From Dehalococcoidia bacterium (lineage in GTDB: Bacteria; Chloroflexota; Dehalococcoidia; Dehalococcoidales; RBG-16-60-22): a stretch of 33,535 nt of DNA. A model generated the notes under the pieces. It was not told where the DNA came from. It did no database searches and was given only the letters and a program-made list of their open reading frames with translations. A program made the position numbers and the translations under genes. This document shows, piece after piece, positions 11,019 to 25,697 of the stretch (positions within the stretch are counted from its first letter, which is position 1; each line of letters opens with the position of its first letter). The stretch spans positions 1-33,535 of the forward strand of contig DUFB01000088.1 in assembly GCA_011192005.1 (NCBI GenBank), read 5' to 3'.

Positions 11019-11813
11019 CTATATACTCTCGTTTTTTAGCCAGGACTCCAGATAACCATAGGCCGACCAGCCACCATCGACGACTATAGTTTGCCCGATG
11101 ATGTACTTCGATTCTTCAGATGCTAGGAAAACAACAGCGTCGGCAACATCGTCGCATTCCCCCAGCCTGCCAGCGGGTGTCCTCCTCGCGAGTTCCTTTT
11201 CGTTGTAGACTCCTTTTGCCAGTAAATCCGTGACCAGTTGCGTCTTTATATAGCCCGGGGCAACGGCATTAACGTTAATGTTATGCTTCGCCCACTCACA
11301 GCCCAGTGTTCTGGTAAGCTGCATCACTCCGGCTTTGGCGCTACCGTACGATGCCCTCTCCGGGAAAGCCTCAATGCCGTTAATGGAGGCGATGTTGATA
11401 ATCTTGCCGCTCCTCTGTTTTATCATTACTTTGCCAGCGGCTTGACTACAGAAAAATACTCCGGTCAGCATAACATCAATACCCCGCCTCCAGAGGCTTT
11501 CCTCCAGCTTTTCCGAAGGGCTGACGATAGCCATGCCGGCATTATTTACCAGGATATCGAGGCTGCCAAAATGGTTGATCACCTCTTTAACCATTTTTTC
11601 AACTGCTGCTTTATCAGCAACATCAGACTTAATGGAAAAAGAACGCCGTCCCAGCTTTTTGATTTCCCGTGTGACTTTATTGGCCTCCGGAACGGAAGAT
11701 GAACAGTTCACCACTACATCAGCGCCTTCTTTGGCAAGAGCCAGGGCTACAGCCCGGCCAATGCCGCGACTGGCACCGGTGACAAGTGCAGCTTTTCCCT
11801 TAAGTCTCATCAC
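11019..11813 (-). CDS. Short-chain dehydrogenase/reductase (FabG-like)
   Basis: NAD(P)-dependent oxidoreductase (264 aa). The nucleotide-binding motif TGASRGIG is at residues 12-19, NNAG at 90-93, and catalytic Ser143, Tyr156 and Lys160 lie in YGSAK; VDGGWSAYG near the end is typical. It should reduce a keto group or oxidise a hydroxyl group. The start is GTG at 11813, with an ATG directly after it that overlaps the preceding TGA (TGATG), so it is coupled to the CoA-transferase gene. It is the last gene of the minus-strand catabolic operon. The substrate cannot be told from sequence. Confidence 0.9.
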   Translation of the reverse strand: MMRLKGKAALVTGASRGIGRAVALALAKEGADVVVNCSSSVPEANKVTREIKKLGRRSFSIKSDVADKAAVEKMVKEVINHFGSLDILVNNAGMAIVSPSEKLEESLWRRGIDVMLTGVFFCSQAAGKVMIKQRSGKIINIASINGIEAFPERASYGSAKAGVMQLTRTLGCEWAKHNINVNAVAPGYIKTQLVTDLLAKGVYNEKELARRTPAGRLGECDDVADAVVFLASEESKYIIGQTIVVDGGWSAYGYLESWLKNESI

Positions 11814-13027
11814 GGTACAATACCCTCTTCCTTCAAATTAACCAGATTATCCCAGTTATAACCGGCCTCCAGCAGCACCTCTTCCGTATGAGCACCTAGT
11901 TGTGGAGCGACACTGGTAATTTTTGCCGGAGTATCACTGAACTGTACCGGGCTGTTAAGTAGTCGTGCCTGGCCCGCTACGGGATGCTCGATATCCGTAT
12001 AGAAGTTGTTCACAAAGGCCTGTTCGTCCTTTATAATTTCAGCAATGGTCTGATTGCCGCTGACGATTAGGTCATTCGCCCGGAATTCTTTCTCCCACTC
12101 CGCCCATGTCTTGGAAGCAAGAATTTCATCCAGTAGTACCACTAGTTCTTCGGCGTGTTGTTCCCGGCTTTCCATCGTGGCGTAGCGTGGATCATTTATC
12201 CAATCCGTTTTGCCAATTGCACTGCAAAACGGAGCCCAATATTCCTGAGTGGGATGGCACATCATGCACCACCTGTCTTTACACCGGTATGATGTGTACA
12301 TCGGGTTCGGTGCGCGCTTTCTGTCCCATTTGGGCTGAGGATAACCATAAAGAGCGGTCTGAACATCAAGCCCTAGTGTCCAAGCTGCGGTATGGTATAA
12401 CGAAAGCTCCAGCCCTTGCCCTTTGCCTGTCTTTTGCTTGTAGTAGAGTGCGGCGAGAATCCCGCTCGTTATATGGGCGGACGCGACAATATCCATCATA
12501 CCCGGGCGCGAGATTGGAGGGGGGTTATCCGGGCTGGAATTTACCAGGTCCATCATTCCACCATATGACCAGGCGGCGACATAATCATAACCACGGTCGT
12601 TTGCTTTTGGGCCTTTTGAACCATATCCGGTAAGTACGAAGTGGACCAGACCCGGATATTTGTCTTTCAGACTGGCATAGTCCAAGTTGTATTTCTTCAG
12701 CACATCTATAGAATAATTGGATGCAAATATATCCGTATCCTCAAGGAGCTTATACAGTACCTCCCGACCTTTTTTAGTTCGCAGGTTCAAAGCGACACTC
12801 CGCTTGTTCCGGTTCAGAAATTCAAAGTGGAGCTCGATGTCTCCCTTATCTAAATGGAGCAGCAGCGGTCCCCTATTAAAGCTGACGAGGCTCCTCTGCC
12901 AATCGCCCCATATCGGCTCTATTTTAATGACGTCGGCACCCCAATCAGCTAACACGGCTGTGGATGCCGGCACGCCCACAACCTGCTCAAAACCTATAAC
13001 TTTCACGCCTTCCAACAATTTTTCCAC
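11810..13027 (-). CDS. CaiB/BaiF family CoA-transferase
   Basis: Class III CoA-transferase (405 aa), expected to move CoA between carboxylic acids or to activate a pathway acid. Family marks are VLADWGADVIKIEP near the N-terminus, NRNKRSVALNL, VLTGYGSKGP, and RPGMMDIVAS with the likely catalytic Asp179. The full family length is present. In this operon it is the natural step for turning a ring-opened acid into a CoA thioester for beta-oxidation-like degradation, matching the neighbouring dehydrogenases and cyclase-family hydrolase. Its own donor and acceptor are unknown. Confidence 0.9.
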   Translation of the reverse strand: MEKLLEGVKVIGFEQVVGVPASTAVLADWGADVIKIEPIWGDWQRSLVSFNRGPLLLHLDKGDIELHFEFLNRNKRSVALNLRTKKGREVLYKLLEDTDIFASNYSIDVLKKYNLDYASLKDKYPGLVHFVLTGYGSKGPKANDRGYDYVAAWSYGGMMDLVNSSPDNPPPISRPGMMDIVASAHITSGILAALYYKQKTGKGQGLELSLYHTAAWTLGLDVQTALYGYPQPKWDRKRAPNPMYTSYRCKDRWCMMCHPTQEYWAPFCSAIGKTDWINDPRYATMESREQHAEELVVLLDEILASKTWAEWEKEFRANDLIVSGNQTIAEIIKDEQAFVNNFYTDIEHPVAGQARLLNSPVQFSDTPAKITSVAPQLGAHTEEVLLEAGYNWDNLVNLKEEGIVP

Positions 13028-13071
13028 ACCAACCTCCTAATTTCCCCGGTATTCCGTTTCATGAATTATTA

Positions 13072-13410
13072 TCAATAATTAATTACTACCATCATGGTCA
13101 CGGGCTTATTGGTTTTATTTAGTATTTCCCGGCCTTCGTTCGGGGCGAGGTACAGAGAATCCATCGGTCCCAGTGTAACTTCTTTTGTTTTGCTTTTAAC
13201 GGTGATTTCTCCGTCTAGGACTATATAAACCTTCTCATTGGGATTATCTTCGTAAGCCCACTCAGCGCCGCCTCCGGGCAGGAAATAAGACAAGCCTACC
13301 CAGAATTTCTGTATACCTGTCTCCTCTTTACCCTGGAGGCGCATCGCTGTCATGTTGAAATGCCCTGCGGCAGCATATGGTTTGACTTCGGATAGGCTGA
13401 TCTTCTTCAT
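13072..13410 (-). CDS. Small cupin-domain protein
   Basis: Single-domain cupin (112 aa). The beta-barrel signature is visible as LPGGGAEWAYEDNPNEKVYIVLDGEI followed by the second motif DSLYLAPNEGREI, but typical histidine ligands are largely replaced (AEWAYEDNPNEK), so metal binding is uncertain. Such proteins may be dioxygenase-like, isomerases or sensors. It lies between the cyclase-family and CoA-transferase genes in the same orientation, so it probably acts in the same pathway or binds a pathway compound. Confidence 0.75.
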   Translation of the reverse strand: MKKISLSEVKPYAAAGHFNMTAMRLQGKEETGIQKFWVGLSYFLPGGGAEWAYEDNPNEKVYIVLDGEITVKSKTKEVTLGPMDSLYLAPNEGREILNKTNKPVTMMVVINY

Positions 13411-13437
13411 ACTACCTTCTTTGAACGATTTTCTGGA

Positions 13438-14247
13438 TTATTGCGTCCCGTATTTATAAACGCGGTCGGGCACGTTATTCAGGTCGGCTTCGTCGATATA
13501 AGCGACCATGCGGACAATCGAGCCATCGCCCATGTACCATCGAATCGGAAAGCCTGATATTTTACACCGCTTGCCAACTACTTTGGCGATATCACCACCC
13601 ACATTTTCCCAACCGAGGATGCCAGCGCGCATAATAATATTGTGGCAGGGTTCCCACTCTTGGAAATCGTCGATTACTTCATGACCACCGGACCATTCCT
13701 TGTATTCCTTGAAAAGGTCGGGTCTCAATGGGCCGGGACCATGGGGGCCGATAGCTGTATGCAGCGGGTGGTCTAAAGCTTGCTGGTCTACACCGATTGC
13801 TTTTGCTTTATGAGCGACGAACCACTCGCCGGCTTCTCTACCGAGTCCGGGTGAATAGCAGAAATACTGCGTGCTATCGCCCCAGTATTTATTCCAGCCG
13901 GTATGGACAATGATAATATCGCCCTCTTTCATCGGTAATTCCTCATTGGCGGCATCTAGGTCTTTAGCCGTAACCAGCTCCCATTTCTTCTTGGGAATGT
14001 CCCAGACCACAGCATCACCATAGTAACATTCCAGCGGAATTTCATGAGTAAAACGGCCGCCTTCGAAGACATGGGCCGGGGAATCGGCATGAGTAGTACA
14101 GTGCATGACCGTAGTTACCGTCTGCGATAGAACCCCGGACTTGGCCATGTAATGCATTCTTTCAATTTTCACGTCGGTAAAATAGGGCCACAAGGGACAT
14201 TTATCGCCGAAAGGATGGCTTAAATCTACCAGCACTTCTTTCCCCAT
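13438..14247 (-). CDS. Cyclase-family metal-dependent hydrolase (kynurenine formamidase fold)
   Basis: Member (269 aa) of the cyclase family (PF04199), which includes bacterial kynurenine formamidase and other Mn/Zn hydrolases. The metal motif reads HCTTHADSPAH (His49, His53, Asp55, His59), matching H-x-x-T-H-x-D-x-x-x-H; IIVHTGW and VDQQALDHP follow in the usual order. The reaction is hydrolysis of an amide, lactone or cyclic diketone. Beside two short-chain dehydrogenases and a CoA-transferase, hydrolytic opening of a carbocyclic ring is an attractive role, as in dihydrophloroglucinol cyclohydrolase, but this is inference. Confidence 0.85.
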   Translation of the reverse strand: MGKEVLVDLSHPFGDKCPLWPYFTDVKIERMHYMAKSGVLSQTVTTVMHCTTHADSPAHVFEGGRFTHEIPLECYYGDAVVWDIPKKKWELVTAKDLDAANEELPMKEGDIIIVHTGWNKYWGDSTQYFCYSPGLGREAGEWFVAHKAKAIGVDQQALDHPLHTAIGPHGPGPLRPDLFKEYKEWSGGHEVIDDFQEWEPCHNIIMRAGILGWENVGGDIAKVVGKRCKISGFPIRWYMGDGSIVRMVAYIDEADLNNVPDRVYKYGTQ

Positions 14248-14286
14248 GATTATTTCTCCTTACTACTTATATTTTGGTTTCCCTGA

Positions 14287-15051
14287 CTACCAAGTGGTAA
14301 CGCCACCATCAATATAGAGAATCTGACCGGTCACAAAACTTGACGCTTCGGATGCAAAAAAAACTACAGGCCCGATAATATCTTCCGGCATCGCCCACTT
14401 ACCCATGGGGATACGTTCTTTCATCTGCTTGGCATAGGCAGGGTCTGCCAGGGCGCTTTTCGTAAGGTCAGTCTCTACAATCGTTGGTGCGACGGCATTA
14501 ACCAGGACATTAGATTTAGCCCATTCGCAGGCAAGCGTACGGGTAAGGGTATCTACAGCTCCCTTGCTGGCGCAATACGCGGCATAATTAGCCGGCAGTC
14601 CGTACCGGCCTCTAACGGAGGATATGTTAATAATACGCCCGCTTTTTTGTTTCAACATCACCCTGCCCACTGCCTGGCAGCAGAGGAAAGTTCCGCGGGT
14701 ATTAACGTCTATTACCTGCTGCCATTCGTCTATGGGGAAAGTATCCGCAGGTTTGCGGATGGCCAGACCAGCGGCGTTTATCAAAATATCGATACGGCCG
14801 AAAGCCTCCATAATCTTGTTTACCATATCTTTGACTAGTTTTTCATTGACGATATCCACTGCCACCGCCATCGACTTCTTCCCCTTGGCTTTTATCTCTT
14901 CAACGACACCTTTAAGTGCCTCGATATTTCGGCTGGTGACGATGACATCTGCACCAGCATCAGCTAGTCCTAAAGCTATCGCTTTTCCTATGCCGCCATG
15001 GCCTCCTACTACCAGAGCTATTTTACCGCTTAGGTTAAATAAGTCACTCAT
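14287..15051 (-). CDS. Short-chain dehydrogenase/reductase
   Basis: NAD(P)-dependent oxidoreductase (254 aa), first gene of the minus-strand operon. The cofactor motif reads GGHGGIG (residues 16-22) and NAAG (92-95); catalytic Ser144, Tyr159 and Lys163 are intact, and YIDGGVTTW ends the protein. It resembles gluconate 5-dehydrogenase and FabG-type enzymes. By position it is the first step or a key reduction in the catabolic operon. The 430-bp divergent region separates it from the PhlG-like gene. Confidence 0.9.
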   Translation of the reverse strand: MSDLFNLSGKIALVVGGHGGIGKAIALGLADAGADVIVTSRNIEALKGVVEEIKAKGKKSMAVAVDIVNEKLVKDMVNKIMEAFGRIDILINAAGLAIRKPADTFPIDEWQQVIDVNTRGTFLCCQAVGRVMLKQKSGRIINISSVRGRYGLPANYAAYCASKGAVDTLTRTLACEWAKSNVLVNAVAPTIVETDLTKSALADPAYAKQMKERIPMGKWAMPEDIIGPVVFFASEASSFVTGQILYIDGGVTTW

Positions 15052-15162
15052 TTCAAACCTCTTACCTTTTATGATTTTTTTAGATATTGGGTTTGGGATT
15101 ATTTTTCCGATAATTTTACTAAATCGAGAAAGCCAGAGACTAATTAAATAAATACTACTTCA

Positions 15163-15176
15163 TATTACATGTGATA
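15163..15176. promoter_or_regulatory. Near-palindrome in divergent promoter region
   Basis: TATTACATGTGATA is symmetric at 12 of 14 positions and lies in the AT-rich region between the two catabolic operons. Length and symmetry fit a MarR-type operator, and a MarR gene lies 3 kb downstream at 18177. The link is a guess from position. Confidence 0.35.
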
Positions 15177-15260
15177 CTTGATTTCTTATAAAATATAGAT
15201 TATGATTAATGCTAATGATATTATTTTTATTAAATTTTGTCAAGATAAAGGAATATCAAT

Positions 15261-15437
15261 ATGTCAGATATATGTGTCGGTACCCCGAAGCAAGTGACGG
15301 ATAATGTCAGGTCATTGATTGATACACTAGCCGATAACAGCTGGCTGATTATAGATGCCAGCCTGGGGATTCCTGATGAAGTTAAAAACGGGAATGTACC
15401 GGTGCTAACTAATCCTGCTCGAAAGTACGGAAAATAA
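15261..15437 (+). pseudogene. C-terminal remnant of a URO-D/corrinoid methyltransferase-like protein
   Basis: A 58-codon frame (ATG 15261, TAA 15435-15437). It begins CVGTPKQVTDNVRSLID and ends with a stretch containing SLGIPDEV and ARKYGK. This is the pattern of the last 55 residues of uroporphyrinogen decarboxylase-like methyltransferases (GTPEEV, then a glycine-rich G-I-P segment and AARKYG). No start for the remaining 280 residues exists upstream; an in-frame stop lies at 15246-15248. It is most simply a decayed gene end, although translation of the short frame cannot be excluded. Confidence 0.5.
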
Positions 15438-15480
15438 TTTATCAATGTGAAATAAATATAAAAAGGAGGGGTACGTAATA

Positions 15481-16128
15481 ATGCCAGAAGAAAAATATCC
15501 TGAAGGATGGATGGTTGTCGACCATATAATACCGGGCGTTACCGCGGAAATGCTCGACTGGTGGTGGGTCAATATGGAGAAAGGCTACGAATTATGGTGC
15601 CCTGATGAGCATAAGGGTTTCAAATGGGAAGTAATGCCACCCTTGGGTGGACATATCGGAGCTGTGCAGATTGCTACTGAGAGTATAGATTACAGTCCGG
15701 TGATGGACATTCGCATAGAATGGGTAGACCCAAACCTGGGAACTAAAGAACAGAAAGATTTCTGGACGTATGAACACCTCTTGGCTGCAGCGGGACCGAT
15801 GGATCCCCAGTCCGGTACCCGGCCCTCTGTTGTGCTTTCTCACCAGTGGGAGACAATTCCCGGTGGCTGTAAAATGCGTTCCTGCATGCACGCTTTGCCG
15901 GGGGGGCCTCCCGATGGTCCTCCGCCCGGCCCAATACCGCCACATCCCAGCGGGAAGAAACCCACCGGAGGCGGTTGGCCCGTTCACAATATCGCCGAGG
16001 TCAGTACATTCAAAGCTTTCCTGCCGGCGCTTTGGGGGATCTGGCAGGCCGTCTCAGACCCGTCAATTAATCGCCAGTGTTCCCTGAAAATAAAAAAAGA
16101 AGGCTCCAAAATAATTTACGTTAAATAA
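15481..16128 (+). CDS. DAPG hydrolase (PhlG)-family protein
   Basis: Protein of 215 aa with the marks of the PhlG family: PGVTAEMLDWWW near the N-terminus, then His58 (GGHIGA), Glu80 (RIEWVD) and HNIAE (His169, Glu173). PhlG uses two His and two Glu, with an H-x-x-x-E pair, to bind zinc and hydrolyse the acyl carbon-carbon bond of 2,4-diacetylphloroglucinol (retro-Claisen). The spacing here suggests the same site. Residues 140-167 form an unusual Pro/Gly-rich loop. A strong ribosome site precedes the ATG. The substrate is probably an acylated cyclic polyketone, but only the family is supported. Confidence 0.65.
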   Translation: MPEEKYPEGWMVVDHIIPGVTAEMLDWWWVNMEKGYELWCPDEHKGFKWEVMPPLGGHIGAVQIATESIDYSPVMDIRIEWVDPNLGTKEQKDFWTYEHLLAAAGPMDPQSGTRPSVVLSHQWETIPGGCKMRSCMHALPGGPPDGPPPGPIPPHPSGKKPTGGGWPVHNIAEVSTFKAFLPALWGIWQAVSDPSINRQCSLKIKKEGSKIIYVK

Positions 16129-16138
16129 GAGGTAGGTT

Positions 16139-16378
16139 ATGAACGAACCTAGAAACTGGGTAAACAAAATTGAGATTGACATGGATGCATGCAAAGGCTG
16201 TAAAACGTGCATGAATGCTTGTTTTGCAGATGTGATCCGTTGGAACGATGCCGATAATAAACCGGTTGTCGCCTATCCTGAAGACTGTGTCTGGTGCCTC
16301 GCCTGCGAAGTTGCCTGCCCGACTCAGTGTATCGAAGTTATTCCCAACATACCGGCTCCTTTGCGTTCATCATATTGA
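16139..16378 (+). CDS. 2[4Fe-4S] ferredoxin-like protein
   Basis: Small electron carrier (79 aa) with two full cluster motifs, CKGCKTCMNAC and CVWCLACEVACP. It starts 10 bp after the PhlG-like gene and is followed by an FAD flavoprotein. The pair resembles the beta and alpha subunits of AprBA or ferredoxin-linked fumarate-reductase-like enzymes, so this protein probably passes electrons to or from that flavoprotein. Confidence 0.88.
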   Translation: MNEPRNWVNKIEIDMDACKGCKTCMNACFADVIRWNDADNKPVVAYPEDCVWCLACEVACPTQCIEVIPNIPAPLRSSY

Positions 16379-16428
16379 TTACTAGACATGAAGGATTCCG
16401 GGGCAAACCAGTAATAAGGAGGCTTGCA

Positions 16429-18126
16429 GTGGCTGACACAAAAGATTTAGGCGAAGTCGTCGCTACAGACATATTAATTATCGGCGGTGGTATCGGCGGC
16501 CTGGTAACGGCTATTAAGGCAAAAGAGGAAAACCCGAATGCGGATGTTCTGATAGTTGAGAAACAAACAACCGGATGGGCCGGTAAAGCTACCAAAATTG
16601 GAGGGATTTTAGCATTTCTTGGGCCAGATAACAACGCAGATAAATTTATGGATTTTCAGGTCCGCAATTCCGGGTTCTATTTGAATGACCAGGACCTATT
16701 ATCAAAGTATGTACAGAGTTCTTACAGGGCAATAGAGAATTTTAATGAATGGGGTGCCAAACTCGCGAGAACCCCGGATGAGAATCTTGTTATCATCCCC
16801 GCTTTCTGGGCTCCTGAATGGTCGCTCACATTTATCGATATCGACTTAATGTTACCCATACGGACCAGAGCCCGGAAAATGGGGGTAAAATTCATGGATA
16901 AAATCCATGTAGTCGATCTGGTGAAACAAGCGAATAAAATTACAGGGGCAGTGGGCTTTGATATTATTAATGGCAATTTCCATATATTCAAGGCTAAAGC
17001 CACTGTACTGGCTAACGGAAGCTGCGGCTATAAAGTGAGGAGATTCTGGATAGCGGGTACCGGTGACGGAATTGCAGCGGCCTACCGGGCAGGGGCAGAG
17101 ATGAGGAACGCTGAATACGGCAATCTCTATGGCCATACGGTATGGCAGGACACAGATAGCGGTATGGTAGGCCATCAATTCTTAGTTAATTCACTGGGTG
17201 AGAACTTAACCCAAAAATATTTACCAAATACGGGGCCTACAGGGGTTTTCCTGCCTGTACAGTTGGCAATAGGTCTGGAAAAAGAAGTTGCAGAGGGAAG
17301 AGGTCCAATATACTTCGAGCCACCACCTTCGACAGGTCCAGGTTTTCCGCCCATGGATCTTCCAAAGCTGAATGATTGGCAGCGGTGTACTGCGGAAAAG
17401 GAAAGCAAATACGGGTTACCACCAACGGTCAAGCGGGAGATAGGGGTACCTTTACATGGCGAAACCTCATGTATCAAAGTTGACCATGAAATGAGAACTA
17501 GCCTTGAAGGCCTCTGGGCTATCGGCGATACCAGCTACGCCGGTTCGGCAGTAGCGGGAGCCGTGGCTTCACCCCCTGGTGTTACACCGGGTTCGGGTAT
17601 TATGTATGCGGTAATCAGTGCTGGTTGGGCCGGGCCTTCGGCTGCCCGTTACGCGAAGGAAGCTTCTACAAGTGATATAGATTATGCTGAAACCAAGAAT
17701 CTTGAAGAAGAAATTTTTTCCCCGATGCAGAGCGGTAACAACTTTTTACCAGGAGATGCCATTAATACGTTGCAAGAAGTAACTGCACCGATAAAATATA
17801 ATCTCCGACGCAGCAGGGAACGTTTAAATGAAGCTTTAATCCGGCTAGAAGAGTTAAAGGTAAAAATTCCTCATCTAAAGGCCAAGGACTACCATTATTT
17901 AAGTAAGTGCCATGAAGTAAAGAGCATGGTATTATGCGCTGAACTAACGTTCAGGGCAGCTTTAATGAGAGAGGAAAGCCGCGGGTCACACTTCCGGGAA
18001 GATTATCCCAAACGTATTGACGAGAACTGGTTGAAGTGGATAATCCTCAAACAGGATGGTGGCAGGATGAAGCTTGCAACACAGTCGGTGCCAATAGATA
18101 AGTATGAAATTAAACCAAATGACTGA
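16429..18126 (+). CDS. FAD-dependent oxidoreductase (fumarate reductase/AprA-like flavoprotein)
   Basis: Flavoprotein of 565 aa. The GTG at 16429 is chosen because AAGGAGG lies 6 bp before it and the Rossmann motif then falls at residues 15-25 (ILIIGGGIGGL); a frame opening at 16294 would overlap the ferredoxin gene. GLWAIGDTSYAG marks the second FAD contact. The C-terminal helical part with REESRGSHFREDYP and NWLKW is typical of succinate dehydrogenase/AprA-type proteins. It should oxidise or reduce a C-C bond or keto compound using the preceding ferredoxin. The substrate is unknown. Confidence 0.85.
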   Translation: MADTKDLGEVVATDILIIGGGIGGLVTAIKAKEENPNADVLIVEKQTTGWAGKATKIGGILAFLGPDNNADKFMDFQVRNSGFYLNDQDLLSKYVQSSYRAIENFNEWGAKLARTPDENLVIIPAFWAPEWSLTFIDIDLMLPIRTRARKMGVKFMDKIHVVDLVKQANKITGAVGFDIINGNFHIFKAKATVLANGSCGYKVRRFWIAGTGDGIAAAYRAGAEMRNAEYGNLYGHTVWQDTDSGMVGHQFLVNSLGENLTQKYLPNTGPTGVFLPVQLAIGLEKEVAEGRGPIYFEPPPSTGPGFPPMDLPKLNDWQRCTAEKESKYGLPPTVKREIGVPLHGETSCIKVDHEMRTSLEGLWAIGDTSYAGSAVAGAVASPPGVTPGSGIMYAVISAGWAGPSAARYAKEASTSDIDYAETKNLEEEIFSPMQSGNNFLPGDAINTLQEVTAPIKYNLRRSRERLNEALIRLEELKVKIPHLKAKDYHYLSKCHEVKSMVLCAELTFRAALMREESRGSHFREDYPKRIDENWLKWIILKQDGGRMKLATQSVPIDKYEIKPND

Positions 18127-18176
18127 CTCGATCCATTCTTTGACCCAAGAAAAAATCAAGAAGTAGCAGGTTAAAT

Positions 18177-18677
18177 ATGAAGAAACGTCGGATCGAAATA
18201 CAAAAAATAAGAACGATAAAAAGAGATGATCCAGAAATTAACCTCTATATACTGCTTGACCAGACCAGAGATCTTGTTACAAATGCGGTTGAACTTGAGT
18301 TGAAACATCTTAGGATGACTCAACCGCAAGTTAAAGTGTTGACCATGCTTTCAAGAGAAGATAGGCCAGTAACACTGGACGAACTAGCGAATTGGACATT
18401 GAAGGAATTTAACTCTGTATCAACCTTAATTAACCGAATGGAGAAGAAGGGTCTTGTTAGGAAAATTAAAAAAGACGGTGATCTGAAGACATATATCGCT
18501 CTGACCGAAAAAGGCAGTGATTTGTATCATAGTCAGGTCACCGAACGTTCAATTCATCTGATATTCAATGAGCTTTCAAAAGAAGAGAAGAAACAACTTA
18601 AGGATCTACTCATGAAAGTTCGCAATACTACCCGTGAACTCATGGGATTGGATTTCAAACCGCCATTTCTACCTTAA
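18177..18677 (+). CDS. MarR-family transcriptional regulator
   Basis: Winged-helix regulator (166 aa). TQPQVKVLTMLSRE, LDELANWTLKEFNSVSTLINRMEKKGLV (recognition helix) and the wing KKDGDLKTYIALTEKG are typical of MarR. MarR proteins usually sense small aromatic or phenolic ligands. Its position 50 bp after the flavoprotein gene makes it the likely regulator of this catabolic region. Candidate operators are the near-palindrome at 15163-15176 and the 22-bp palindrome at 25764-25785. The N-terminal 20 residues are highly basic. Confidence 0.88.
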   Translation: MKKRRIEIQKIRTIKRDDPEINLYILLDQTRDLVTNAVELELKHLRMTQPQVKVLTMLSREDRPVTLDELANWTLKEFNSVSTLINRMEKKGLVRKIKKDGDLKTYIALTEKGSDLYHSQVTERSIHLIFNELSKEEKKQLKDLLMKVRNTTRELMGLDFKPPFLP

Positions 18678-19813: not shown

Positions 19814-19994
19814 GTTGTAATACCTTCTTTTGTCCCATTGCTTCGCCGTTAAAAGTACTCGGGTTCCACCTTATCTCTTTCGTATCGAGTTTAAAAAAGA
19901 TATCGGGATGATTGGGGATTACAAGCTTGCGTTGATTGCCGGAAGCATATACAATCCCGTTTGCGAAGTCGCATACTTTTTTCCACTCCTTCAT
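19806..19994 (-). CDS. Small protein of unknown function in NrfD operon
   Basis: A 62-aa soluble protein, not recognised. Its ATG overlaps the stop of the NrfD gene (TAATG) and its end overlaps the PAS sensor gene by 8 bp, so translational coupling argues that it is real. It has one cysteine (Cys8) and a mix of charged and aromatic residues with no membrane segment. It could be a chaperone or an accessory subunit of the redox complex. Confidence 0.6.
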   Translation of the reverse strand: MKEWKKVCDFANGIVYASGNQRKLVIPNHPDIFFKLDTKEIRWNPSTFNGEAMGQKKVLQHG

Positions 19995-21157
19995 TATGCT
20001 TTCACCTCTGCCATTTCTTCATGCTGGATAATCGGCAGAAAACGGTACGCCAGCCAGACTACCAGCAGAGCATCCGCGACCAGCCCTATCGATATCGCGA
20101 ACTCCATCCAGTGCGGGAAATAAACGTAGCCCGGCCGCATGCCCAGGGCCAGCATACTCACGTTGAAGCGGTTGAATATCAGCCCCATGATTACCAGGAC
20201 CGATGTCCAGAAGACGCCTTTTCGACTCTGCCTGATATCCGGTATAGAAAACAGGATGATGGGTAAAACAGACCCTATGATGATTTCCCCCCACCATAAC
20301 AGGTTATACGGGTACGCCGTGAAAATCAGCCCTATCTCTCCTACCGCCATCAGTTCGAAAAATTTCAACAGGAGGAAAAGCCCCAGGATATATGGGACGA
20401 TTTTAGCCAGGCCGCTCAATATATCGGTTTCCAGCCTGTGCCCGAATACGCGGTTACTCAAAGTCGACTCGAATATCACCATCGCCGGACCTACGGCAAT
20501 AGCCGATACGAGGAAGAGGATGGGTAATATCGGGGAGTACCACAGTGCATGTAATGTGGTGGGCATCATCAACAGCATCGAACCCAGCGACGACTGGTGT
20601 AAGGTGGAAAGCACCACGCCGGCGATTACCAGCGGAATCTGGATGGCCCGGATTACACCCCAGGGAACACGCCAGTTGATGTCTCTTACCACCGGTAAAT
20701 TGCTCCGGTTCAGGCCTTCGAAAACCGCGGGACTGAACTCCAGGGCCAGCACGACGGTATAAGTCATGACGCACATTCCCACCTCGAATAACGGGGAGTG
20801 AACGTTCCAGTTGATGATGATGTGCCAGATGTACCAGGGCTGCCCCAGGTCTACTAGCAGAGCAAGTATCACCAGCGTATAACCGAGAAAAGCGGTGAGG
20901 ATGGCCGGCCTTACCACGGGATGGTATTTCTCGAGGCGGAAAATGTAAACCGCTCCGGCCAGCGTAAAACCACCCGCCGCCAGAGCGACGCCGCAGTACA
21001 GGTCGAAGCTTATCCAGAGCCCCCAGGGACGGCCGTCGCTTAAATTGCTTATGGCTCCCAGACCGTTGACAAAACGGTAAATCATTACCGCCAGCCCGAG
21101 AATCACCAGAATGCTTAGGATAGAGGTACCGATGGAAAACGGATGCCTTCTTTGCAT
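19994..21157 (-). CDS. NrfD/HybB-family quinone-interacting membrane subunit
   Basis: Integral membrane protein (387 aa) with about ten hydrophobic segments, of the NrfD/PsrC/HybB family. GRPWGLWISFDLYCGVALAAGG in the first third and the LVDLGQPW segment are family motifs. These proteins link a peripheral iron-sulfur subunit to the menaquinone pool. It overlaps the ferredoxin-like gene by one base (TAATG-type junction), which is the standard partner arrangement. The catalytic subunit that usually comes with them is absent here. Confidence 0.88.
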   Translation of the reverse strand: MQRRHPFSIGTSILSILVILGLAVMIYRFVNGLGAISNLSDGRPWGLWISFDLYCGVALAAGGFTLAGAVYIFRLEKYHPVVRPAILTAFLGYTLVILALLVDLGQPWYIWHIIINWNVHSPLFEVGMCVMTYTVVLALEFSPAVFEGLNRSNLPVVRDINWRVPWGVIRAIQIPLVIAGVVLSTLHQSSLGSMLLMMPTTLHALWYSPILPILFLVSAIAVGPAMVIFESTLSNRVFGHRLETDILSGLAKIVPYILGLFLLLKFFELMAVGEIGLIFTAYPYNLLWWGEIIIGSVLPIILFSIPDIRQSRKGVFWTSVLVIMGLIFNRFNVSMLALGMRPGYVYFPHWMEFAISIGLVADALLVVWLAYRFLPIIQHEEMAEVKA

Positions 21158-21975
21158 TATTTTAGCGTCTCTTTCTTCGTGGATTTATCCTGGCTTATTT
21201 TTTCACGGCGTTTGCAGAGCCAGTAAATCCCCGCCATGGTTGCCGCCACTCCCAGCAGCACCGGTGCCACAGCTCCCATGGCGCGCTCGGCATCTACGGT
21301 TACCGGTTCTGAATCGAGTTCCGGGAATCCCAGCTCCTTGAAAGGCACCGGAGATAGATAAAGCCAGGATGTTCCCCCCACCTCTTTCTCTCCGTAAATA
21401 TGGTCTACATATTTATCTGGCGCTTTGGCTATACGCTCTCTGGCTTTCTGTATAAGCTCTTCTCGCTCACCCAGCTCCAGGGCGTTTGTCGGGCAGGTTT
21501 TTACACAGGAGGGTTCCAGCCCTTCATTCAGGCGCTCCATACAGAACGTGCATTTTCGTATCCAGGGCAGAGGGTCTTCCCACTCGAAACTGGGTATGCC
21601 GAACGGACAGGCTACCATGCAATAACGGCAGCCGAAGCACTTATTATCATCGTAGATAACCGGTCCCTCGGCTGTTTTTGTTAATGCACCTACCGGGCAG
21701 GCCGCCACACAGGCGGGGTGTTCGCAGTGCATACACTGTACTTTGGTAAATACCCAATGGAATTTACCGTTATATTCCAGTTCGGTAAAGCGTATCCTTG
21801 TCCAGGTATGTGCCGATAACCGGGGCGGGTTCTCGTTACTGCCCAGGTTCTTGGAATCCACCCCGTTTTCCTCGGTGGGTATAGCCTCGTCATTTTCGTT
21901 CCACTGCTTGCAGGCTACCTGGCATCCCCGGCATCCGATACACCTGTTAGCGTCGAAAAGTACGGCTACGGTCAC
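21157..21975 (-). CDS. Four-cluster ferredoxin subunit with C-terminal membrane anchor (HybA-like)
   Basis: Iron-sulfur protein (272 aa) of the HybA/FdnH/DmsB type. Motifs for four [4Fe-4S] clusters are CIGCRGCQVAC, CMHCEHPACVAACP, CFGCRYCMVACP and CTFCMERLNEGLEPSCVKTCP read together in crossed pairs. The C-terminus has one membrane helix (GAVAPVLLGVAATMAGIYWL) and a basic tail, as in HybA. No Tat signal is seen. The start is GTG at 21975 with GGGAG before it. It should wire electrons between an unidentified catalytic protein and the adjacent NrfD-type subunit. Confidence 0.88.
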   Translation of the reverse strand: MTVAVLFDANRCIGCRGCQVACKQWNENDEAIPTEENGVDSKNLGSNENPPRLSAHTWTRIRFTELEYNGKFHWVFTKVQCMHCEHPACVAACPVGALTKTAEGPVIYDDNKCFGCRYCMVACPFGIPSFEWEDPLPWIRKCTFCMERLNEGLEPSCVKTCPTNALELGEREELIQKARERIAKAPDKYVDHIYGEKEVGGTSWLYLSPVPFKELGFPELDSEPVTVDAERAMGAVAPVLLGVAATMAGIYWLCKRREKISQDKSTKKETLK

Positions 21976-24728: not shown

Positions 24729-25697
24729 TTATTTCTCGGTAGGTGTGGGAGGACGCTGGCCAAATCTCCTGCGGATGCCATCTTCTCCGAAGAAGCTATC
24801 ACCCCAGCCTTCCATGAGAGTGCCACCACCGAGCATTATGGCCATTTCTATATGAGGTTTTCTTACCTCGTGCCAGTTGAGCGGGCCGTGAATTATGCCG
24901 CGGGGTATCCACATGCCGTAGCTCTTGTTGAATTGAAGCAGGTCATCGCCCATGCCGAATTCCATGTCGGCACCGAGGTCCTCGGGGTCGTCGGGGTCTC
25001 CGCCGATATGAAGTACGATTTCATCAAGTTTCTCGTGCACCATCTTGGGAATCGGGGGTTCAACCTTACCCCAGATCCAGCCGAATTCAATGTAGTAATT
25101 AGCCAAGTTTATCTGTGTCCGGCTCATATAGGTCATCGTCGGACTCTGACGACCGGCGGTGAAATTGCCTCCCGCTTCCCGCATGGGACTGCGGATAACG
25201 TACTGCTCGTAGTCGAAGTCCTTATCTTTCTTCGGAGGGGAAGACTTTTTCTCCCCGATACCGCTGTGTCCCCACCCCTTTTTCATGTCGCCGGTACCCA
25301 GCATCATCGCCATCTCGATATGCGGGAATTCGAACTTCTTCCAGGTTAACGGGCCGTGGGGAACGCCCGCAGGGATGAAAATGCCGGTAGTGGTGTTAAA
25401 AGTAATCGGTTGCCCGCCGATGTAAAACTCTATTTCACCGCCAAGCACCTGAGGCCTCTTGTAGTCACCACCCCAGTGAAGCACGATTTCATCGTAATCG
25501 TGGACGTGTTCCTGGATATGTGGGTTAGGCTCGGGCATATCGTATATCCAGCCGAGTTCGATGTAATAGGGAGCACCCGTCTGCTTCTCGCTCATAAAAG
25601 TCATCGTGGGAGACTGACGGCCCTTAACACCGGGCCCCGCTTCATAAAAGGGTGTCCTTACAGCGTATTTTTCATATTCTGACTCTGCCATTTTCAT
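24729..25697 (-). CDS. Tandem-duplicated cupin-like protein
   Basis: Protein of 322 aa made of two similar halves (about residues 5-145 and 160-310); both contain GRQSPTMT, a YYIE-x-GWI segment, DEIVLH-x-GG and HGPL, then PHIEMA. The first half has a full ligand set (His60/64/66, Glu70, His114), while the second keeps His221, Glu226 and His270 but lacks the first histidine of the pair. Only one half may therefore bind metal well. Its function is unknown. It is divergent from the alcohol dehydrogenase across a 22-bp palindrome. Confidence 0.75.
   Translation of the reverse strand: MKMAESEYEKYAVRTPFYEAGPGVKGRQSPTMTFMSEKQTGAPYYIELGWIYDMPEPNPHIQEHVHDYDEIVLHWGGDYKRPQVLGGEIEFYIGGQPITFNTTTGIFIPAGVPHGPLTWKKFEFPHIEMAMMLGTGDMKKGWGHSGIGEKKSSPPKKDKDFDYEQYVIRSPMREAGGNFTAGRQSPTMTYMSRTQINLANYYIEFGWIWGKVEPPIPKMVHEKLDEIVLHIGGDPDDPEDLGADMEFGMGDDLLQFNKSYGMWIPRGIIHGPLNWHEVRKPHIEMAIMLGGGTLMEGWGDSFFGEDGIRRRFGQRPPTPTEK

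Follow-up and report, generated by a model that had tools for sequence, protein, structure and literature searches.

The stretch of DNA considered here (the window) comprises 33,535 nucleotides from a Dehalococcoidia bacterium of the order Dehalococcoidales (contig DUFB01000088.1) and is contig C96 of a metagenome-assembled genome (MAG), G000, of 2.13 Mb and 80% completeness. It carries two divergent gene groups, a tightly packed minus-strand operon of the order SDR1-cyclase-cupin-CaiB-SDR2 (15051-11019 -) and, opposite to it, a plus-strand arm of the order PhlG-ferredoxin-flavoprotein-MarR (15481-18677 +). Taken as a whole, the locus probably serves the oxygen-independent degradation of acyl- or alkanoyl-phloroglucinols with lower steps at the level of CoA thioesters, as judged from gene content, phylogeny and a structure model. 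Its features are as follows.

14287..15051, minus strand: SDR1, a phloroglucinol-reductase-like short-chain dehydrogenase (SDR), first gene of the operon (adh_short_C2, 222 bits)
13438..14247, minus strand: cyclase-family hydrolase of the DPGC type, putative dihydrophloroglucinol cyclohydrolase (PF04199, 119.7 bits)
13072..13410, minus strand: small cupin protein (Cupin_2)
11810..13027, minus strand: CaiB-type (class III) CoA-transferase (PF02515, 341.9 bits)
11019..11813, minus strand: SDR2, a second short-chain dehydrogenase (adh_short_C2, 224 bits), overlapping CaiB by 4 bases
15052..15480, no strand: region of divergent promoters separating SDR1 from PhlG; aligned with the intergenic regions of loci L011 and L012, it shows short blocks of conservation
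15481..16128, plus strand: predicted zinc hydrolase of the PhlG/phloretin-hydrolase family (PF18089, 52 bits against a cut-off of 22.7)
16139..16378, plus strand: ferredoxin of 79 aa with two cysteine cluster motifs in its translation
16429..18126, plus strand: FAD flavoprotein of the AprA/FrdA superfamily (FAD_binding_2 and Succ_DH_flav_C)
18177..18677, plus strand: MarR-family regulator (MarR/HTH_27)

All the genes named in an earlier reading made from the letters alone (the sequence-only reading) are in place, with Pfam matches that exceed 200 bits for both SDRs and with the ferredoxin/flavoprotein pair included; the cupin (13072-13410) and MarR (18177-18677) genes were missing from its inventory. 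At 79 aa the ferredoxin lies below the 90-aa floor of the list of open reading frames (ORFs). The flavoprotein ORF is open from 16294, its most likely start being the GTG at 16429 behind AGGAGG. The same arrangement recurs in two further MAGs with proteins 71-93% identical to those of the window (cyclase 91-93%, PhlG 78-81%): at L075 in G022 every gene except MarR is present in the stretch examined, and at L076 in G018 the contig stops inside CaiB, leaving SDR2 beyond its end, with all other genes present. Because gene order is kept in independent MAGs, it is attributable neither to chance nor to a binning chimera. The MarR gene adjoins the flavoprotein or PhlG gene at L012 and L013, and in the model developed below its product possibly controls both divergent units; an operator was not pinned down, the inverted repeats differing among the three intergenic regions compared. 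A small ORF (MSDICVGTPKQVTDNV...) at about 15260-15440 (+) within the divergent region has no counterpart in the L011/L012 region and is probably a gene remnant.

The cluster of Clostridium scatologenes, which encodes phloroglucinol reductase (PGR), dihydrophloroglucinol cyclohydrolase (DPGC), TfD of the 3-hydroxyacyl-CoA dehydrogenase (3HCDH) family and TAL of the BKACE family (PMC10470551), is the natural point of comparison. Like it, the window combines a PGR-like SDR and a DPGC-type cyclase in one operon; unlike it, the window lacks TfD and TAL, carries CaiB and SDR2, and has an SDR that is a sister type of PGR. Comparison with PGR was made through structure 5g4k, and comparison with DPGC through residues quoted in PMC10470551 and named carriers of the cluster.

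The firmest functional prediction concerns the cyclase, which is probably a ring-hydrolysing dihydrophloroglucinol cyclohydrolase. Searched against plasmids with tblastn, it retrieves a discrete group at 47-59% identity, the next cyclases reaching no more than 40%, and the inspected members of that group sit in cyclase-cupin-SDR-3HCDH-BKACE clusters; a cupin gene likewise lies next to most DPGC homologs. It is 69% identical to the homolog of Rubrivivax gelatinosus, a named phloroglucinol degrader carrying the PGR-DPGC-TfD-TAL cluster (PMC10470551). In the cyclase tree, a single clade (SH-aLRT 97) unites 86 sequences with two closely related ones from Chloroflexi; kynurenine formamidase 4cog falls outside it, as do 26 further cyclases from Chloroflexi. 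The metal-binding set H49, H53, D55 and H59, as well as W20, P21 and Y22, is present in the window cyclase and in 86 of 86 clade members. Trp20 and Tyr22 are the CsDPGC residues that have been contrasted with the Ile and Leu substrate residues of isatin hydrolase (PMC10470551), and Tyr22, universal in the clade set, occurs in only 2 of 28 other cyclases, both of them the near relatives inside the clade; at that position Q, G or F prevails in the 26 outside. Membership among the kynurenine formamidases, which the sequence-only reading had named as the outcome that would count against it, is ruled out by the tree and by Tyr22, an arylformamidase model scoring 43 against a cut-off of 223; the cyclase groups instead with those of PGR-DPGC-TfD-TAL clusters at the support just given.

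SDR1 takes the position that PGR occupies in such clusters. The SDR found in this slot in Novosphingobium has its best solved match in 5g4k/5g4l, and 5g4k we take to be phloroglucinol reductase. All 77 slot SDRs, with 5g4k and SDR1 included, form one clade with a support of 98, few outgroups having been sampled. Arg147 is present in 77 of 77, Tyr156 is likewise shared by the clade and Thr190 occurs in most; SDR1 has all three, and the set is missing from SDR2 and from the few other SDRs sampled. The SDR1 type itself fills the PGR slot in loci of Moorella, Acetoanaerobium, Rubrivivax, Acidobacteriota, Actinomycetota and Dehalococcoidia. A crystal structure of PGR from Clostridium sp. ATCC BAA-442 is mentioned in the literature (PMC10470551). 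The suggestion that the first SDR resembles phloroglucinol reductase thus holds at the level of the clade shared with 5g4k and fails at that of the PGR core clade; SDR1 appears to be a sister type rather than a core PGR, and may have a PGR-like function.

What sets the window operon apart is its lower module. A scan of named genomes gave 80 loci, and locus counts refer to 87 loci with a DPGC cyclase. TfD and/or TAL lie close to the cyclase in 67 of the 87, and in none of the six Dehalococcoidales loci that bear CaiB (hypergeometric p 8e-5, the rows being related); both are absent from the window locus. CaiB is followed by SDR2 in the window and at L075, L077, L078 and L079, L076 being cut inside CaiB. 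A sister Dehalococcoidia locus, L080 (cyclase 86% identical), keeps TfD and TAL in the order SDR1-cyclase-cupin-TfD-TAL, followed by a transhydroxylase, so the swap can be seen among close relatives. The CaiB protein matches CoA_transf_3 over its full length (341.9 bits, positions 1-366 of 366), has orthologs at 68-88% identity in other Dehalococcoidales genomes and retains the Asp of a PGMMD motif that is invariant across six orthologs and may correspond to the catalytic Asp of formyl-CoA transferase. SDR2 forms a monophyletic group (support 99) with its counterparts from the remaining CaiB loci, and about a dozen thiolase-domain matches are present in G000. The likeness to anaerobic phloroglucinol degradation proposed in the sequence-only reading therefore stands for the reductase and cyclase steps; a second dehydrogenase of the 3HCDH type and a BKACE are missing, with CaiB and SDR2 in their stead. 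Elsewhere, an operon of the order SDR1-cupin-CaiB-SDR2 without a cyclase is found at L187 (G071:C467, 4958-8262), the sole cyclase relative of that genome, at 44%, lying on a different contig.

These absences invite the explanation that the pathway is the ordinary one, with TfD and TAL encoded elsewhere in the genome and CaiB and SDR2 serving to activate and oxidise something else, for instance the acid that PhlG would free. A MAG that is 80% complete and contains one BKACE and several 3HCDHs leaves room for it, and CaiB enzymes often activate acids. However, the BKACE of G000 stands apart from the TAL clades; those 3HCDHs of G000, G018 and G022 that were placed in a tree are not members of the TfD clade, most of them retaining an Asn absent from TfDs; BKACE was not found in G018 or G022; and the six genomes with CaiB loci (completeness 55-88%) yielded no TAL relative. 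Further, PhlG was not found on the stretch read at L078, nor in the 8 kb upstream at L079, although both have CaiB and SDR2, which are therefore not there only to process an acid freed by PhlG. An ordinary pathway completed elsewhere in the genome is, in light of this, unlikely.

The operon at L078, of the order TH-beta-SDR1-RidA-DPGC-cupin-dicupin-CaiB-SDR2-TH-alpha (TH, transhydroxylase), is also the most telling guide to the ring compound. Its alpha subunit matches pyrogallol hydroxytransferase 4v4c of Pelobacter at 1115 bits, and by the presence of both subunits in the operon SDR1, the cyclase, CaiB and SDR2 are tied to phloroglucinol. At 14 DPGC loci transhydroxylase genes are found no more than 10 kb from the cyclase, and an alpha/beta pair at 76-77% identity is present on contig C26 of G000. 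That the operon acts on some other cyclic 1,3-diketone or polyhydroxyaromatic compound, such as a ring of the resorcinol type which the ferredoxin/flavoprotein pair renders reducible, is quite unlikely. It would fit with the position of SDR1 outside the PGR core clade, with the diverged short form of the PhlG-like protein and with the mention of a ferredoxin-dependent resorcinol reductase (PMC10470551), but the transhydroxylase subunits of L078 frame the same SDR1-DPGC-cupin-CaiB-SDR2 set and point to phloroglucinol, and genes of the SDR1 type occupy the position of PGR in canonical clusters, those of Rubrivivax and Acetoanaerobium among them.

Pyrogallol-phloroglucinol transhydroxylases have already been reported in sediment Chloroflexi (PMC3971608, PMC4959651), and the homologous alpha and beta genes of L078 and of the window's genome resemble them; the genes lie outside the window, and the passages of the reports considered here describe neither a ring-opening operon nor a deacylase. 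The capacity proposed as new for this kind of sediment bacterium is thus new in part. G000 has at least 4 paralogs of the pyrogallol transhydroxylase alpha subunit (contigs C26, C68, C45 and C12), 43-76% like the L078 enzyme, which may differ in substrate. A family of 361-381-aa proteins, 75% identical to each other, is encoded beside transhydroxylase alpha at L188 (8147-9232) and L078 (9686-10831), the L078 member having zero Pfam matches. The window itself encodes, at 19994-21975 (-), a membrane subunit resembling NrfD/HmcC together with a ferredoxin subunit that has multiple clusters and is 32% like transhydroxylase beta; a catalytic molybdenum subunit does not adjoin them in the window. 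At 24729-25697 (-) it encodes a 322-aa protein with halves about 48% alike that is cupin-like by eye and has zero Pfam matches.

In the divergent arm, the PhlG-like protein is shortened, having no counterpart of the N-terminal portion of PhlG. Phloretin hydrolase 5xe5 (E 1e-24) and PhlG 3hwp (E 4e-23) are both retrieved with a profile built from 20 homologs. An AlphaFold2 model of the protein (pLDDT 82, with a low-confidence loop at 142-163) has a Bet v1-like fold and as its nearest structures 3hwp (Z 14.0 over 170 residues, 3.2 A) and phloretin hydrolase 5xey (Z 13.4). The lead in Z over generic Bet v1 folds is about 1 unit, the lower-ranked structure matches all being generic Bet v1, so that the evidence from residues matters. 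His44, His121, His169 and Glu173 are present in 20 of 20 homologs and Glu67 in 15, the others having Gln. H44, E67, H169 and E173, two His and two Glu, align with corresponding residues of 5xe5, a set whose equivalents we take to be the zinc ligands of PhlG. The H169xxxE173 pattern proposed in the sequence-only reading was thus right, but His58 and Glu80, its other two proposed ligands, occur in just 10 and 4 of the 20 homologs and do not belong to the set, in which His44 and Glu67 take their place. That reading had held that a placement away from PhlG, with the ligands lost in a model, would tell against it; the nearest structures are PhlG and phloretin hydrolase, and the His/Glu set is kept. 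The protein shares its fold and the equivalents of His44, Glu67, His169, Glu173 and His121 with Mycobacterium abscessus phloretin hydrolase (5xe5/5xey) and Pseudomonas fluorescens PhlG (3hwp), and differs from them in its identity of about 20%, in its missing N-terminal extension, in WCP for WHP and in the ferredoxin and flavoprotein genes that follow. Family, fold and conserved residues together suggest that it is a retro-Claisen deacylase.

The flavoprotein finds its best solved relative in the PAPS reductase alpha subunit 8a8o, with parts alone aligning to 2fja; fumarate reductase or succinate dehydrogenase, considered as alternatives, are rejected on NCBIfam scores far below the cut-offs. 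As in the AB pairs of APS/PAPS reductase, a gene for an FAD flavoprotein of the FrdA superfamily stands beside one for a small two-cluster ferredoxin; unlike in those pairs, the match is 103 bits at best and the context is aromatic degradation. The ferredoxin gene lies between PhlG and the flavoprotein at L011, L012 and L013, and beside the flavoprotein at L099-L101, where an ORF of about 180 aa, SCP2-like by eye, separates TfD from the ferredoxin gene. PhlG-family (DAPG_hydrolase) genes beside phloroglucinol clusters are already known (PMC10470551), and Acetoanaerobium noterae has cupin-SDR-TfD-cyclase-TAL-PhlG in consecutive order. It is rather improbable that PhlG and the ferredoxin/flavoprotein pair form an unrelated module that faces the DPGC operon by chance. 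A PhlG-Fd-flavoprotein-MarR set does stand without DPGC on an 8.4-kb contig of G153 (L013), a genome in which a DPGC relative was not found; against this, PhlG homologs occur in 19 of the 87 DPGC loci, and the flavoprotein is encoded at six DPGC loci, from Dehalococcoidales and from MAGs of Actinomycetota (L099-L101), each of which has ferredoxin and PhlG as well, the six being related and counting as about two lineages.

The degradation of acylphloroglucinols without oxygen, as proposed in the sequence-only reading, is supported by the DPGC clade (97), by the clade of SDR1 and 5g4k (98) and by the structural neighbors of the PhlG-like model (Z 14.0 and 13.4); cyclic polyketones beyond the phloroglucinol types are possible further substrates, and the uncultured Dehalococcoidales host is apparently anaerobic. 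In the proposed pathway, the PhlG-like hydrolase would remove the acyl side chain by retro-Claisen cleavage to give phloroglucinol and an acid. SDR1, given its clade and its place in the operon, would then reduce phloroglucinol to dihydrophloroglucinol with NADPH, and the cyclase would hydrolyse the ring to 3-hydroxy-5-oxohexanoate. The replacement of TfD and TAL suggests that CaiB would make the CoA thioester, that SDR2 would oxidise the 3-hydroxy group before or after this activation, and that a genomic thiolase would split 3,5-dioxohexanoyl-CoA into acetyl-CoA and acetoacetyl-CoA. The ferredoxin and flavoprotein could be a redox module tied to PhlG, reducing an enone or another side-chain or ring group so that PhlG can act, although this role is speculative. 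That a CoA-thioester branch of this kind exists, in which CaiB activates 3-hydroxy-5-oxohexanoate or triacetate, SDR2 oxidises and thiolases finish, fed by the transhydroxylase and by the PhlG-ferredoxin-flavoprotein module, is put forward tentatively. A 3-hydroxyacyl-CoA intermediate has been mentioned as a possibility for Eubacterium oxidoreducens (PMC10470551), and a literature search for a CoA-ester route yielded a pathway designed by computation (PMC4632160) and nothing else. Neither DPGC operons in Dehalococcoidales nor the replacement by CaiB and SDR2 turned up in a literature search made mostly without subscription journals.

Several points weigh against the model. All its reactions are deduced from gene content and order, their conservation, clades, residues and similarity of fold. 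SDR1 is 32% identical to 5g4k and is excluded from the PGR core clade (support 99), whose Asn97, Arg193 and Trp199 are A97, E193 and S199 in SDR1. A single-sequence search of the PhlG-like protein against solved structures returned zero relatives. One BKACE does exist in G000, distant and on a long branch, and the swap is seen in one lineage, in MAGs that are 55-88% complete; being confined to one lineage, it may be a single event. Many SDRs prefer the (R) form, whereas the hydroxy acid made by DPGC is (S). The configuration of that product is on record (PMC10470551). The weakest links are the sequence in which CaiB and SDR2 act and their substrates, the stereochemistry of SDR2, the substrate of PhlG and the function of the flavoprotein.

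Organohalide respiration is what the Dehalococcoidales are chiefly known for, and phloroglucinol is a shared intermediate of the anaerobic breakdown of flavonoids and tannins. Phloroglucinol breakdown bears on the survival of polyphenol carbon in anoxic peat and sediment, and an operon for ring opening and deacylation in sediment relatives of the Dehalococcoidales broadens the range of known degraders. The module swap provides candidate genes for a second lower route, and pathway searches that demand TfD and TAL homologs beside DPGC would overlook these genomes. If the CoA-thioester branch is real, it would give genes to the CoA-ester intermediate suggested for Eubacterium oxidoreducens; likewise, if the PhlG-ferredoxin-flavoprotein module acts as proposed, flavonoid-type or acylphloroglucinol compounds would be deacylated by it in anoxic sediment.

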